Shown here one piece after another: positions 1-6,426 of a stretch of DNA of 6,826 nt. Each line of letters begins with the position of its first letter. Position 1 is the first letter of the stretch. The notes beneath the pieces are model-generated. The model ran no database searches. It was not told where the DNA came from and was given only the letters and a program-made list of their open reading frames with translations. The stretch is from Atopobiaceae bacterium (GTDB taxonomy: Bacteria; Actinomycetota; Coriobacteriia; Coriobacteriales; Atopobiaceae): NCBI GenBank assembly GCA_015258485.1, contig JABZIF010000054.1:1-6826 (forward strand), given 5' to 3'. Position numbers and translations under genes: made by a program.

Positions 1-743
1 TTAGCAACAGCGTTAATCTTTGCCTCAATGACAGCTGGATCGCCAATATAATGCTTGTCAACAATGTTCCAGTCCTTGTCAAAGGTATATGCGCAAGGAA
101 TGCCGGTTGGGATGTTGACCTCAAGGATCTCTTCTGGAGTAAGGTGCTCAAACTGCATAACAAGAGCACGTAGGCTGTTGCCATGTGCAGCAATGAGAAC
201 ACGCTTGCCAGACTCAAGCTGAGGCTTAATCTCCTGCTCAAAGTATGGCCAAGCACGTGCTATGGTGTCCTTCAGGCACTCAGTGTAAGGAAGGTCTTCT
301 GCTGGAACATTGCGGAACATCTCCTGAACGTGAGGATCGCGCTCGTCACCTGGCTCAAGAGCTGGTGGCTGTACATCAAAGGAACGACGCCAAATCTTTA
401 CCTGATCCTCACCATGCTCCTTAGCAGCATCAGCCTTGTTAAGACCCTGAAGAGCGCCGTAGTGACGCTCATTGAGACGCCAAGTTTTATGGACTGGAAG
501 CCAGTTACGATCAAGTTCATCAAGAACATGATTAAGGGTATGAATAGCACGCTTTAACAGGGAAGTGTAGCAAACATCAAAGTCATATCCTGCTTCTTTA
601 AGGGCACGACCACCTGCGATTGCCTCTTCGTGACCAGTTTCAGTAAGGTCAACGTCAGTCCAACCTGTGAATAAGTTAAGCTTATTCCACTCGGACTCAC
701 CGTGGCGAACAATAACTAGGTGCATGTACTCGTCTTCTGCCAT
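1..743 (-). CDS. gpmA: 2,3-bisphosphoglycerate-dependent phosphoglycerate mutase (3' end cut by window edge)
   Basis: Cytoplasmic glycolytic and gluconeogenic enzyme that interconverts 3-phosphoglycerate and 2-phosphoglycerate through a phosphohistidine and a 2,3-bisphosphoglycerate cofactor. The visible 247 residues show the family signatures in order: RHGESEWN with the phosphorylated His at residue 14, LFTGW at 24-28, LLKRA with Arg65, NERHYG with Glu92, and AAHGNS with the second catalytic His187. All four catalytic residues sit exactly three positions later than in E. coli GpmA (His11, Arg62, Glu89, His184), so the protein is colinear with the family. The family is usually about 250 residues, so only a few C-terminal residues and the stop lie outside the window. 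The ATG at 743 is preceded by AAAGGAAG at a 6-base spacing. The internal Met7 has no comparable site. It is transcribed away from all other genes here, behind its own long leader. Confidence 0.96.
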   Translation of the reverse strand, partial: MAEDEYMHLVIVRHGESEWNKLNLFTGWTDVDLTETGHEEAIAGGRALKEAGYDFDVCYTSLLKRAIHTLNHVLDELDRNWLPVHKTWRLNERHYGALQGLNKADAAKEHGEDQVKIWRRSFDVQPPALEPGDERDPHVQEMFRNVPAEDLPYTECLKDTIARAWPYFEQEIKPQLESGKRVLIAAHGNSLRALVMQFEHLTPEEILEVNIPTGIPCAYTFDKDWNIVDKHYIGDPAVIEAKINAVA

Positions 744-1336: not shown

Positions 1337-2650
1337 ATGAGTGGCGATAAAAAAATTGATTACATTCTTCGCACAGTAGAAGAAAGAGATGTTCGCTACC
1401 TGCGACTTTGTTTTACTGATGTGCTTGGTGGTCTTAAGGCACTTTCTATTTCTCCAGAAGAACTTGAAGAAGCTTTTGTAGAAGGCATTGGCTTTGATGG
1501 TTCAACGGTTGATGGTTTTGCATCTCACGAGCAGTCAGACCTTCTCGCCTTTCCTGATGCAGATACATTTCAGGTATTGCCCTGGCGTACCGATGATGGT
1601 CTTGTGGCAAATGTGTATTGTGATATTCAAACACCACGTCGTGAGCCCTTTGCAGGAGATCCTCGCCGTGTATTAGAGAATGCCTTTATTAAGGCAGAAG
1701 ATTTGGGCTATGTTGCAAATATCGGTCCAAAACTTGAGTACTTTTATTTTGTTGATGGCGTGCATCCAAATCCAATTGATAGGGCTGGATATTTGGATTT
1801 AAATTCTTCCGATTTGAGCCATGATTTGCGCTATTCAACTTCTCGTGCTCTAGAGAATTTATCTATTCCTGTTCAGTATTCGTTCCATGCATCTGGTCCA
1901 GCACAAAATGGGGTTGAGCTTAGGTACGCAGAAGCTGTTACGTGCGCAGATAATATTGTTACAGCCCGTTTGGTTATTAGGCATATTGCAACACTTCATG
2001 GAGTATTTGCATCCTTTATGCCCAAGCCTCTTCAGGGTGTTCCGGGCTCTGCGATGCTTTTAAATCAGTCGCTGCTTAATCATGATGGTGAGACACTCTT
2101 TTGGGCACCAAAGACAGAAAATTCAGCTCATCTTTCTGAGCTTGCACAGCATTATGTTGCAGGTCTGCTTAAGTATGCACCTGAATATATGCTTGTTACC
2201 AATCCAACTGTTAACTCATATAAGCGATTTGACCGCGAGTCTATTCCAAGTTATGCAACATGGGGACAAAAGAATCGTTCAGCGCTTGTTCGTATTCCTA
2301 CACATAAGCCTGGTAAGCATATTGCAACTCGTGCTGAGCTGAGAATTGCCGATCCTACAGCTAATCCATACCTTGCTAATGCAGTTACCCTTTTGGCCGG
2401 TCTTAAAGGTATTGAAGATAATCTTGAACTTCCTAAAGAGTTTATTGGTGGAAACCCTGCAGAATACGGAGAAAAGCTTCCTTCAACTTTAGGAGAAGCT
2501 CTTGAGCGCTTTAAACAATCTGAGCTTCTTAAAGAGGCTCTTGGCGAGCACATCTTTACCTATTTATGCGAACGAAAAGAACAAGAATGGAAAGAGTTCT
2601 GCATGGCAGTTACTGATTGGGATACGCAAAAGTATTACGCTGGCTGCTAA
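1337..2650 (+). CDS. Glutamine synthetase type I-like protein with a degraded active site
   Basis: A 437-residue protein spanning the whole type I glutamine synthetase family (usually about 440-470 residues). These enzymes ligate ammonia to glutamate using ATP as a dodecamer. Recognisable motifs in order: beta-grasp N-domain with FTDVLGG (26-32), FDGSTVDGF (53-61), GPKLEYFYF (130-138), FMPKP (227-231), NPTVNSYKR (289-297), NRSALVRIP (313-321) and TRAELR...DPTANPYL (331-346). Hand alignment to Bacillus and Salmonella GlnA shows metal-ligand positions replaced: K132 for E129, A185 for E212, G192 for E220 and L241 for H269. Only E134 (E131) and E334 (E357) remain. The glutamate-binding Asn of GVNGSGMH is Pro236, the flap motif GYEAP is lost, and the feedback Arg62 of the Bacillus enzyme is Ser63. 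I infer a non-catalytic homologue. The ATG at 1337 has GGAGG five bases upstream; a TTG at 1310 is less likely. It lies upstream of a GlnR-like gene and has its own terminator. An automatic annotation would call it glnA. Confidence 0.93.
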   Translation: MSGDKKIDYILRTVEERDVRYLRLCFTDVLGGLKALSISPEELEEAFVEGIGFDGSTVDGFASHEQSDLLAFPDADTFQVLPWRTDDGLVANVYCDIQTPRREPFAGDPRRVLENAFIKAEDLGYVANIGPKLEYFYFVDGVHPNPIDRAGYLDLNSSDLSHDLRYSTSRALENLSIPVQYSFHASGPAQNGVELRYAEAVTCADNIVTARLVIRHIATLHGVFASFMPKPLQGVPGSAMLLNQSLLNHDGETLFWAPKTENSAHLSELAQHYVAGLLKYAPEYMLVTNPTVNSYKRFDRESIPSYATWGQKNRSALVRIPTHKPGKHIATRAELRIADPTANPYLANAVTLLAGLKGIEDNLELPKEFIGGNPAEYGEKLPSTLGEALERFKQSELLKEALGEHIFTYLCERKEQEWKEFCMAVTDWDTQKYYAGC

Positions 2651-2670: not shown

Positions 2671-2703
2671 AAGAGGATCCATGTTTACGTGGATCCTCTT
2701 TTT
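2671..2703 (+). terminator. Rho-independent terminator after the glutamine synthetase-like gene
   Basis: AAGAGGATCCA (2671-2681) pairs perfectly with TGGATCCTCTT (2690-2700). The loop can tighten further by a U-G and a G-C pair, and a run of five T (2699-2703) follows. It lies 20 bases after the stop codon and should separate this transcript from the regulator gene downstream. Confidence 0.93.
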
Positions 2704-2750: not shown

Positions 2751-3425
2751 ATGCATCACAAGAATATTCTTCTTGTTTCTGCAACGACACGCTTACATGA
2801 ACGTATGCGTGAACTTTCCCATGTCATTGATGTTTCTATTGCTTTAGTTAATGCATCTTCTTTTTCTCAAGCAGCAACATCTGGGCATACGTTTGATCTT
2901 ATTATTCTTGATCAAAAAGATTTATCTCAGGATGTTATAAGTTCCGTTGAGAATTATTCTGCAAAAAATGGTGGGATTTCTCGTCTTTTTGTCGCTGATT
3001 TGGATAGGTTGTCAAAGTTTGTGTTACCTGTTCAAGGAAAAAGTGACTTTATTCTTTCTACTGCAACAATTCAGGAATTTAGCTTGAGGTGTTCTTTACT
3101 TCTTTGGCCAGGTACAGAAAGTACTTCAAGAGATTTAGTTATTGTTGATAATATAAAAATAAATTTAGCAACATATCAGGTTTATATTGATGAAACTCCT
3201 GTTGATTTAACGTATATGGAGTATTTGTTACTGTCATTTTTAGCAACTCATCCTTCTCGTGCTTATTCGCGAGAAACACTTTTGCAGCGTGTGTGGGGTT
3301 TTGAGTATTGCGGCGGTACCAGAACTGTCGATGTCCACGTAAGACGAGTTCGTTCAAAAATTGGACCACAAGCAGCAGCGCATCTTGAGACTGTTCGTGG
3401 CGTTGGTTATCTATTTAGAGCGTAA
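2751..3425 (+). CDS. GlnR-like OmpR/PhoB-family transcriptional regulator with degenerate receiver domain
   Basis: A 224-residue cytoplasmic DNA-binding protein of two domains. Residues 4-120 have the strand pattern of a response-regulator receiver (NILLVS, FDLIILD), with Asp54 at the usual phosphorylation position. The acidic pair near the N-terminus is replaced by Val9-Ser10, and no TKP-type conserved Lys is found, so classical phosphorylation is unlikely. Residues 129-223 form a winged helix of the OmpR/PhoB type, with VWGFEYCGGTRTVDVHVRR (181-199) and TVRGVGYLF (214-222). These resemble the same region of Streptomyces and Mycobacterium GlnR, an orphan nitrogen regulator that also has an atypical receiver. 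No histidine kinase is adjacent. The neighbouring glutamine synthetase-like gene supports a nitrogen role. The ATG at 2751 follows GAGGGGG (2739-2745) at five bases. It could be another orphan OmpR-type regulator, since RegX3 and related proteins share much of the wing sequence. Confidence 0.8.
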   Translation: MHHKNILLVSATTRLHERMRELSHVIDVSIALVNASSFSQAATSGHTFDLIILDQKDLSQDVISSVENYSAKNGGISRLFVADLDRLSKFVLPVQGKSDFILSTATIQEFSLRCSLLLWPGTESTSRDLVIVDNIKINLATYQVYIDETPVDLTYMEYLLLSFLATHPSRAYSRETLLQRVWGFEYCGGTRTVDVHVRRVRSKIGPQAAAHLETVRGVGYLFRA

Positions 3426-5064: not shown

Positions 5065-6426
5065 GTGGATATGTTGGTAGTAGGAATACTCGTTGTAGTA
5101 CTAGTTGTTTTATTCGCAGGATTTGCTTATCTAGCCTCTGTATTTTCGCAGTCTAAAGCCCTTCAAGAGCAAGCTCAAGTATCCGCTACCGAGCTCAATA
5201 GAACTTCTCAAGAGTTCGAGCGTCGCGTCGCAGAAAATATGACATCTATGCACCAACTTATGGATACGAAGCTTGAGCAGGTAAGAGAGGTAGTTGATCA
5301 AAAACTTACTACGACGTTGCAAGCTCAAACTAAACAGACTGATGAGCGTATTGCTCAGCTTGACGTGCGTTTTGATGCGTTTCAGCGTCGCGTAGATGAA
5401 AATATGAAAGCAACTTCTCAAGCTTCAACAGAACAGCTTGGCAAAGTTAGAGAGACCGTCGATAAACAACTTGGAGACATGCGTAAAGAGAATGAAGTAA
5501 AACTTGAACAGATGCGCCTAACTGTTGACGAGAAACTTCAGAAAACGCTTGATGAGCGTATGACCCAGTCATTTCAGCGTGTATCAACCCAGCTTGAACA
5601 GGTTCATCAAGGTTTGGGCGAAATGCGTGGCCTTGCTGAGGGCGTTGGTGATTTAAAGAAGGTCCTTTCGGGTGTTAAGACGCGTGGTATTGTAGGAGAG
5701 ATTCAGTTAGGTGCAATCCTAAGAGACATTCTTTCTCCCGAACAGTATGAAGAGAATGTTATAACTGTTGCTGGTTCTTCTAAGCGTGTTGAGTTTGCTG
5801 TTAAGCTTCCGGGTGAATCTGGAGAGACCGTTTGGCTTCCCATTGATTCTAAGTTTCCAGGTGACACATATGAGCATTTGGTAGATGCGATTAATTCAGG
5901 AAATGAAGAAGTAATTGCAGTGGCGAGAAAAGCGCTTGAGGCTCGTATTGAAGAAGAAGCAAAAGACATTTCTACCAAATATATTGCTCCGCCAGAAACA
6001 ACTAACTTTGCTATTTTGTTTCTCCCCTTTGAAGGGCTCTATGCAGAGGTGGTAAGTCGCGCGGGTCTACTTGAACGGCTACAAAGAAAGTATCGTGTTA
6101 ACGTTTGTGGACCTTCAACTATGGCATCTCTTCTTAACAGTCTTCAAATGGGATTTCAATCTGTTGCGATTCAAAAACACGCTGATGAGATTCAGCGGGT
6201 TTTATCGGCAGTTAAGACTGAGTTTGAGACGTATAAAGGTCAGTTAGAGAAAGCTCGATCACAAGTGCAAAAGGCAGAAAAAGCACTGGATACTATCTTG
6301 ACTACAAGAACAAATGTTATGAGTAGAAAATTGAGAACCGTTACTGCATTAGAAAATCTCGATGAAGCTCATAAAACGTTGGGGATTAGTGGCATGGTAG
6401 ATGATGGAGACGAGGATGAGAAGTAA
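5065..6426 (+). CDS. rmuC: RmuC family DNA recombination protein
   Basis: A 453-residue protein of the RmuC family, which limits inversions at short inverted repeats in E. coli and carries a nuclease-like fold; its exact activity is unsettled. A hydrophobic anchor (residues 3-27) is followed by a long coiled coil (about 32-200) built from repeats. The conserved RmuC domain then shows GVKTRGIVGEIQLGAIL (203-219), LPIDSKFPG (258-266), FLPFEGLYAEV (319-329) and CGPSTMASLLNSLQMGF (348-364). A second short helical stretch and an acidic tail end the protein. The start is uncertain: GTG at 5065 has GGAG six bases upstream and is preferred. The in-frame TTG at 5053 has its GAGG only two bases away, and ATG at 5071 has the GGAG twelve bases away. 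The choice changes the length by at most six residues and not the anchor. It follows the HtrA-family gene closely on the same strand. Confidence 0.92.
   Translation: MDMLVVGILVVVLVVLFAGFAYLASVFSQSKALQEQAQVSATELNRTSQEFERRVAENMTSMHQLMDTKLEQVREVVDQKLTTTLQAQTKQTDERIAQLDVRFDAFQRRVDENMKATSQASTEQLGKVRETVDKQLGDMRKENEVKLEQMRLTVDEKLQKTLDERMTQSFQRVSTQLEQVHQGLGEMRGLAEGVGDLKKVLSGVKTRGIVGEIQLGAILRDILSPEQYEENVITVAGSSKRVEFAVKLPGESGETVWLPIDSKFPGDTYEHLVDAINSGNEEVIAVARKALEARIEEEAKDISTKYIAPPETTNFAILFLPFEGLYAEVVSRAGLLERLQRKYRVNVCGPSTMASLLNSLQMGFQSVAIQKHADEIQRVLSAVKTEFETYKGQLEKARSQVQKAEKALDTILTTRTNVMSRKLRTVTALENLDEAHKTLGISGMVDDGDEDEK
5215..5544 (+). repeat. Tandem 55-residue repeat within the RmuC coiled coil
   Basis: Two adjacent 165-base units, 5215-5379 and 5380-5544, encode related sequence. 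FERRVAENM is followed by FQRRVDENM, and LEQVREVVDQKL by LGKVRETVDKQL, both offset by exactly 55 residues. A further LEQMRLTVDEKL lies 22 residues after the second. Offsets of 55 and 22 are multiples of 11, pointing to a hendecad coiled coil. The DNA is only partly conserved, so this is an old duplication or constraint on the coil, not a recent repeat. Confidence 0.7.

Follow-up and report, generated by a model that had tools for sequence, protein, structure and literature searches.

A glutamine synthetase homologue with an eroded metal site, probable partner of a GlnR-type regulator in Coriobacteriia

Introduction

In the glnRA circuit of Firmicutes, glutamine-inhibited glutamine synthetase (GS) binds MerR-type GlnR or TnrA (PMC9249791; all articles are cited here from the parts of their text that were available), and Firmicutes GlnR has been assigned to the MerR family (PMC10704036). 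The GlnR of actinobacteria is OmpR-type. It is described in the available part of the same article as an orphan with no co-localised sensor gene, with Ser/Thr phosphorylation and acetylation as reported inputs, and its published boxes include GAAAC-n6-GTATC and gTnAc-n6-GaAAc (PMC10704036). In the 2-oxoglutarate-activated GlnA enzymes of archaea, the effector is contacted by F24, R26, S38, R87, R172, R173 and S189 of M. mazei GlnA1 (PMC11957540, whose residue numbering we follow); contacts are also given for the M. thermolithotrophicus enzyme, and a Tyr at the first contact is the state of bacterial homologues that are insensitive to 2-oxoglutarate (PMC10799026). A sensing role of GS has furthermore been described from a fungus (PMC3829961). 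Our literature search, with most subscription journals outside its coverage, found nothing on the GS homologue described below or on GlnR in Coriobacteriia.

Here we describe a stretch of 6,826 nucleotides from an Atopobiaceae bacterium (contig JABZIF010000054.1 of assembly GCA_015258485.1), referred to as the window, which encodes a GS homologue next to a GlnR-type regulator. In a group of gut and mouth bacteria a GS with an erased metal site is kept beside the gene of a nitrogen-control switch, and our analysis suggests that this protein is now a nitrogen sensor for the switch.

Materials and Methods

Out of 197 genomes searched, 185 had a match to the GS protein of the window. Eighty loci were hand-picked down the ranked list and fetched, and 84 loci were classified, namely these 80, the window, L001, L002 and L004; L003 (a fragment) and L005 and L006 (other GS genes) were left out of the counts. 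In ten of the 12 genomes that gave no GS match, a close relative of the regulator was missing too (best match 79 bits, ordinary OmpR types). The other two have the regulator where a contig stops, and their GS gene may therefore have dropped out in assembly.

The tree was computed by maximum likelihood with a quick search, with SH-aLRT as its only support measure and with the ligand-trait columns left in, and dN/dS was estimated according to Nei-Gojobori. Type III glutamine synthetase (GSIII, GlnN) and PII were counted in 50 genomes. GlnR-box-like sites were sought as the direct repeat GWAAC-n6-GWAAC with up to one mismatch unless called exact, and the scan before glnN covered 40 of 44 GSIII_N matches. 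The 2-oxoglutarate motif was defined as F24, R26, R87, R172, R173, S/T189 and a small residue at position 40, with S38 not required. An earlier reading of the window, made from the sequence only, had listed the metal ligands by Salmonella residue numbers. The names of bacterial families given for the grades below rest on few named records.

Results

Gene content of the window

The window begins with gpmA (3-743, minus strand) and a gene for a small FeoB-associated Cys-rich membrane protein (1034-1237), both assigned from the list of open reading frames and Pfam; the latter type of gene also occurs 5′ of the GS homologue in several loci of grade C (see below). A GlnR-box-like direct repeat GAAAC-n6-GTAAC, GAAACATCTTTGTAAC, was found by sequence match at 1270-1285 on the plus strand, 51 nt 5′ of the ATG of the gene for the GS homologue (1337-2650, plus strand, 437 aa). 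A strong hairpin of 13 pairs with a T-rich tail, resembling an intrinsic terminator (2671-2700, plus strand), separates this gene from that of an OmpR-type regulator of the GlnR family (2751-3425, plus strand, 224 aa). The window further encodes an HtrA-type protease and a protein of the RmuC family, and it includes the beginning of a gene for an ABC ATPase (open reading frames and Pfam). An Rfam scan of the window gave no match at gathering scores. The nearest genomes are small Coriobacteriia genomes, one of which (G085) encodes a GS protein with 89% identity to that of the window, and the named relatives are mostly Olsenella, i.e. Atopobiaceae.

A glutamine synthetase fold with an erased metal site

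The gene of the GS homologue starts with an ATG after the ribosome-binding site GGAGGG and its frame is open without a frameshift, which bears out the sequence-only reading of an end-to-end type I GS. Pfam places both GS domains on the protein (PF03951 at residues 18-100, 81.4 bits; PF00120 at residues 107-433, 298.9 bits). The AlphaFold2 model (mean pLDDT 88.2) has 8s59, the active M. mazei dodecamer, as its top structural match (TM 0.91 by query length), and M. mazei GlnA1 chains are likewise the closest PDB relatives of the protein by sequence. By its two domains and its match to 8s59 the protein is thus a member of the type I GS (GlnA) fold family. Its score against the NCBIfam GlnA equivalog TIGR00653, 345.8 bits, lies below the cut-off of 429.15, and of the six metal ligands that mark GlnA as an enzyme (E, E, E, E, H, E) it has two.

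In the alignment to M. mazei GlnA1 the lost ligands are E135, replaced by Lys (K132, codon at 1730-1732), E192, replaced by Ala (A185, 1889-1891), E199, replaced by Gly (G192, 1910-1912), and H248, replaced by Leu (L241, 2057-2059, all plus strand), while E134 (E137) and E334 (E336) are kept. These are the same four replacements that had been read from the sequence; the residue numbers given then fit the start at 1337, and the interval 1730-2059 spans exactly codon 132 to codon 241. It had been considered that E194 might stand in for a lost ligand. We rejected this substitute: its counterpart in M. mazei GlnA1 is an Asp (D201) that is not a ligand, and 30 of the 57 members of the clade described below have Ser at this position, so that no site is restored. 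Among the best 120 database proteins listed, taken together with the query, Glu is absent from the second and third lost sites and His from the fourth; at the first site Lys (80) outnumbers Glu (30).

Two further marks of the sequence-only reading were true of the window but carry less weight than had been given to them. The catalytic flap Glu (M. mazei E307) is indeed replaced by Ser (codon 302, 2240-2242, plus strand) in a flap that is one residue short, but the flap Glu is kept in 28 of the 57 clade members. Similarly, Pro236 does occupy the Asn site, but taken by itself it is no proof of a dead enzyme, as otherwise intact GS enzymes unlinked to the regulator have Ala at this site (10/10) and as Pro is also found in 14 of 16 copies of an intermediate grade. 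Since 15 of these 16 copies have all ligands, we refrain from calling the intermediate grade inactive.

Three grades and loss of the ligands in one clade

The 84 loci were sorted into three grades. In grade A (n = 11) all six ligands are present in every copy and the flap reads GYEAP or GFEAP. In grade B (n = 16), which by database names includes relatives of Gordonibacter and Arabiibacter, i.e. Eggerthellaceae, the six ligands are present in all copies except L121, which has five; the Asn site is changed in 16/16 and the flap is mostly GGEAP. Grade C (n = 57 including the window), with Olsenella and Collinsella aerofaciens among its database names, has one ligand left in three sequences, two in 29 and three in 25. 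At the first lost site Lys occurs in 26/57 and Glu in 25/57; none of the 57 has Glu at the second or third site (window A185 and G192) or His at the fourth (window L241), where Phe occurs in 45.

The tree recovers grade C as one clade (SH-aLRT 99) and grade A as one group (91); grade B needs two changes, L121 being the cause. A single loss of the metal site, placed at the base of grade C, is therefore the simplest account, and because the 57 sequences have this common origin, counts within the clade are not independent. L121 itself (7004-8308, genome G075) is an intermediate copy in which one of six ligands is lost (Ala for the first Glu) and the flap reads DLDAP; it branches between grades B and C, and its genome has two GSIII matches. 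Ten type I enzymes of grade A genomes that are not linked to the regulator (L125-L134) fall outside all grades; they are second GS copies that have Ala in place of the Asn and lack the 2-oxoglutarate motif. In Olsenella phocaeensis (L004) the full GS homologue (6001-7347) is directly preceded by a shortened copy (5105-6004) that is almost identical to it, with an unresolved residue between the two, which looks like an assembly repeat.

The calculation of dN/dS, which had been proposed as a check, indicated strong purifying selection in grade C, with values of 0.024-0.137 in 15 close pairs (a 16th pair was saturated, and two pairs had dS >1.7). Four grade A pairs gave 0.043-0.115 and five grade B pairs 0.031-0.187. 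Among 142 columns that show no variation across 22 intact enzymes, grade C retains 94 at 90% or above. We rejected a decaying pseudogene or a sequencing artefact on these grounds: such an origin would account for the lost active-site residues, but the open frame, the loss common to 57/57 clade sequences, dN/dS far below 1 and the retained columns make it hardly credible.

Erosion has been selective, since the pocket arginines and Asp stay invariant across the clade. Asp54, His184, Ser245, Arg297, Arg314, Arg319, Arg332 and Glu334 are found in 57/57 grade C members, Arg336 in 56 and E134 in 54. What has been erased lies mainly around the metals, in the flap and at the feedback Arg, a position that reads Ser63 in the window and is still Arg in 2/57. 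The kept arginines together with Asp54, His184, E134 and E334 could in principle serve a new catalytic activity on one metal or none. We regard this as very unlikely, because three of the lost ligand positions are now variable (Ala/Ser/Gly and Phe/Leu/Tyr) and neither Pfam nor NCBIfam points to another reaction.

Co-occurrence with type III glutamine synthetase

The GSIII_N domain (PF12437) was found in every one of the 39 genomes of grades B and C that were checked and in none of the 11 grade A genomes, ten of which have two type I GS genes. This contrast has no exception, yet few phylogenetic events underlie it. It suggests that GlnN was gained first, which may then have left the type I protein free to lose catalysis. 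The window's own genome presumably has a GSIII as well, to judge by its relatives.

The same co-occurrence (39/39 derived-grade genomes) would fit a regulatory or structural subunit that binds GSIII and controls its activity rather than its transcription. This is unlikely, however, as the gene stands beside the regulator and not beside glnN, the closest spacing seen on one contig being about 19 kb (G129), and as the ligands of grade B are intact although GSIII is present. With a separate GSIII, clade-wide loss on one branch and purifying selection, our comparison supports what the sequence-only reading had said about ligand loss and about a pseudoenzyme retained for another role rather than decaying.

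The adjoining regulator

Of the 84 loci, 80 have a GlnR-type regulator gene downstream of the GS homologue and on its strand, at a distance of up to 400 nt in 51 cases, so that among the roles put forward earlier the neighbourhood favours that of a regulator partner. In grade B the regulator is downstream in 16/16, with gaps of 2-42 nt in 15 and one overlap. Among the exceptions, L062 has the regulator 3.4 kb away on the other side of the GS homologue, and of three loci with no regulator in the stretch two end at most 132 nt from the gene and one (L061, genome G107) has the regulator on another contig. The two genes are 0.4-7 kb apart in 28 of the 57 grade C loci. Both spaced loci that were scanned have amino-acid-type ABC transporter genes between GS homologue and regulator (SBP_bac_3, permease and ATPase in L045; SBP_bac_3 in L069). 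L045 is the window's nearest relative, and its intervening genes for binding protein, permease and ATPase (8617-11923) are absent from the window. The two grade A loci that were scanned have genes for glutamate synthase no more than about 2 kb upstream. Terminator-like hairpins occur between GS homologue and regulator in 8 of 50 close pairs, and the predicted hairpin of the window argues against simple co-transcription of its two genes.

The winged helix of the regulator is closest to GlnR, the best PDB sequence matches being the GlnR chains 8hig, 8hih and 8hml, and the regulator family was assigned to GlnR by profile. This profile scored 150 bits against 8hig and 148 against 8hih, the next non-GlnR chain reaching 106. 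With a limit of E 0.01, the GlnR N-terminal domain (Pfam PF21695, GlnR_1st) was recognised in 18 of 26 members of the family, and the window's own regulator falls short of this model. The structural model predicts a receiver-like domain followed by the winged helix. Over the whole length, Foldseek ranked PrrA, MtrA and PhoP ahead of GlnR, with a TM near 0.4 for all, and the DNA-binding domain alone matched GlnR at TMt 0.89, a value that other OmpR-type domains also reach (0.86-0.89). The supposed phosphoacceptor Asp is Glu in seven of eight grade B proteins aligned, and no kinase gene adjoins the regulator in the window.

Co-evolution is weak evidence for a partnership, since the correlation of protein distances between GS and regulator (0.89) is the same as that between GS and HtrA (0.89). 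The partial GS-regulator correlation was 0.61 given HtrA and 0.78 given GpmA, in 47 and 23 of the 57 clade loci, respectively. The neighbourhood may reflect co-regulation only. Nevertheless, we consider it rather probable that the protein is a GS pseudoenzyme acting as regulatory partner of the adjoining GlnR-type transcription factor.

GlnR-box-like repeats before the pair and before glnN

A repeat with at most one mismatch lies 5′ of the GS gene in 77 of 84 loci (10/11 in grade A, 13/16 in B and 54/57 in C), against 0.3, 0.7 and 2.1, i.e. about 3 of 84, expected from base shuffles; the repeat is exact in 53/84. Control regions of the same loci had it less often (gpmA 5/27, htrA 2/47, regulator gene 11/81). 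The repeat agrees with published GlnR boxes (PMC10704036, as far as its available text gives them), and as a sequence match the site at 1270-1285 of the window, like those of the 77 loci, is a putative GlnR box at a target promoter.

Repeats of this kind were also found in regions 5′ of glnN (L149-L178 and L135-L144). With up to one mismatch they occur in 21 of 40 regions (10/13 in grade B, 11/27 in grade C) vs 2.2 expected, mostly as GAAAA-n6-GAAAC and exact in one region; the other 19, including those of the three genomes nearest the window, have no such box before glnN. From these matches glnN is likely a second target of the regulator. An attempt to outline a genome-wide GlnR regulon with the exact pattern led nowhere, as in four genomes it was not enriched (27 matches vs 47 for the reversed control), and the regulon may therefore be small.

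The 2-oxoglutarate pocket

The full 2-oxoglutarate motif is present in 75 of the 84 linked copies (11/11 in grade A, 16/16 in B, 48/57 in C) vs none of the ten unlinked enzymes. PII is the usual sensor of 2-oxoglutarate. It was found in 10/11 grade A, 11/12 grade B and 12/27 grade C genomes, and was not found in the other 15 of grade C, which include the three nearest the window. Because the motif is kept in linked copies and not in unlinked ones, and because of the PII distribution, 2-oxoglutarate is the leading candidate ligand for the family. Retention of the motif alone is weak evidence, though, since 143 of 286 columns that are invariant in intact linked enzymes are kept at 90% or more in grade C anyway.

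In the window the full motif is not preserved, its positions reading Y, R, R, R, Y, S, S. Four contacts are kept, namely R23 (M. mazei R26; codon at 1403-1405, plus strand), R84, R165 and S182, and three are changed, with Y21, A35 and Y166 for F24, S38 and R173; the three nearest relatives have a fourth contact changed too. For the protein of the window, a different ligand is just as possible, for example glutamine, glutamate or a nucleotide held by the retained arginines.

One special form of the regulatory partnership would make the pseudoenzyme a 2-oxoglutarate receptor, in which the archaeal-type allosteric pocket was kept while catalysis was lost, and which signals nitrogen shortage to GlnR. 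We offer this as a tentative reading that is less likely than not. The distribution of the motif, the 15 grade C genomes in which PII was not found and the best match of the window's predicted structure, the active M. mazei dodecamer, speak for it. Against it stand the altered contacts of the window and its relatives and of five further clade members that miss at least one, the general retention of half of the invariant columns, PII in 12 of the 27 grade C genomes, and Tyr21 of the window, the residue of insensitive bacterial homologues (PMC10799026, available text). About as tentative is the view that in Coriobacteriia a GS has become a receptor devoted to 2-oxoglutarate, which signals directly to an OmpR-type GlnR and is the missing sensor of a response regulator without a kinase, the living lineages showing the steps from intact linked enzyme to linked enzyme with GSIII to pseudoenzyme with GSIII.

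Discussion

A model for the regulatory partnership

Returning to the GS pseudoenzyme as regulatory partner of GlnR, we observed ligand loss of single origin, purifying selection, a conserved position beside the regulator gene, upstream repeats that resemble GlnR boxes, and GSIII in the derived genomes checked; from these we infer the step from neighbour to sensor, and any identity of the ligand, as follows. Coriobacteriia would have had an ancestral glnA-glnR pair, whose catalysis became dispensable once GlnN had taken over glutamine synthesis. The GlnR-linked glnA, freed from catalysis, would have been kept as a ligand-sensing partner of GlnR. The former enzyme presumably still folds and probably still forms a ring; it would read a nitrogen-status ligand in the retained pocket and, by touching the receiver-like domain of GlnR, convey the ligand state to it. 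This regulator has neither an adjoining kinase gene in the window nor a fixed phosphoacceptor across the family. GlnR would then act on the box that precedes the pair and also on glnN in many of the genomes.

With a conserved, sensor-like neighbour of GlnR whose signals would not be blurred by enzyme activity, the question lends itself to a direct test. The grades, which run from an intact enzyme to a pseudoenzyme and in which GSIII probably allowed catalysis to be given up, moreover clearly illustrate in nature how an enzyme can turn into a candidate receptor. There is also a practical side, as the degenerate form is labelled glutamine synthetase in databases for Collinsella and Olsenella, and metabolic models of these bacteria may therefore include a GS enzyme that is not there.

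Comparison with known systems

PDB 2j9i (Glutamate-ammonia ligase domain-containing protein 1) is a further GS fold that is kept without catalysis, but its similarity to the window GS protein is distant (E 7.6e-5). This protein, known as lengsin, is an inactive eye-lens homologue of vertebrates and is not known to have a regulator partner.

The closest fold and sequence relatives in the PDB are the archaeal 2-oxoglutarate-activated GlnA enzymes of M. mazei and M. thermolithotrophicus (PMC11957540 and PMC10799026, available parts), whose effector contacts are kept in most of the linked family. Unlike in these enzymes, the catalytic metal ligands are erased, and the window has lost three of seven contacts.

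With actinobacterial GlnR (8hig, 8hih, 8hml; PMC10704036, available part) the regulator shares the winged helix, an unconventional receiver domain and a direct-repeat box of the GAAAC/GTNAC-n6 type. It differs in that a GS homologue is its conserved neighbour and in that the regulator of the window is without the C-terminal extension of the 8hig and 8hih chains.

The circuit that we propose would resemble the GS-GlnR circuit of Firmicutes, with an unrelated regulator and no enzyme activity. The regulator is OmpR-type and unrelated to the MerR-type GlnR, and it ends just after the winged helix and so has no C-terminal tail that binds GS; on the side of GS, the metal site is missing and Arg62, which is required for glutamine inhibition, corresponds to Ser63 in the window and is Arg in 2 of the 57 clade members. 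Common to both is a type I GS gene that stands beside the gene of a nitrogen regulator or in one operon with it, and, if our preferred explanation is right, a GS that itself senses the nitrogen status.
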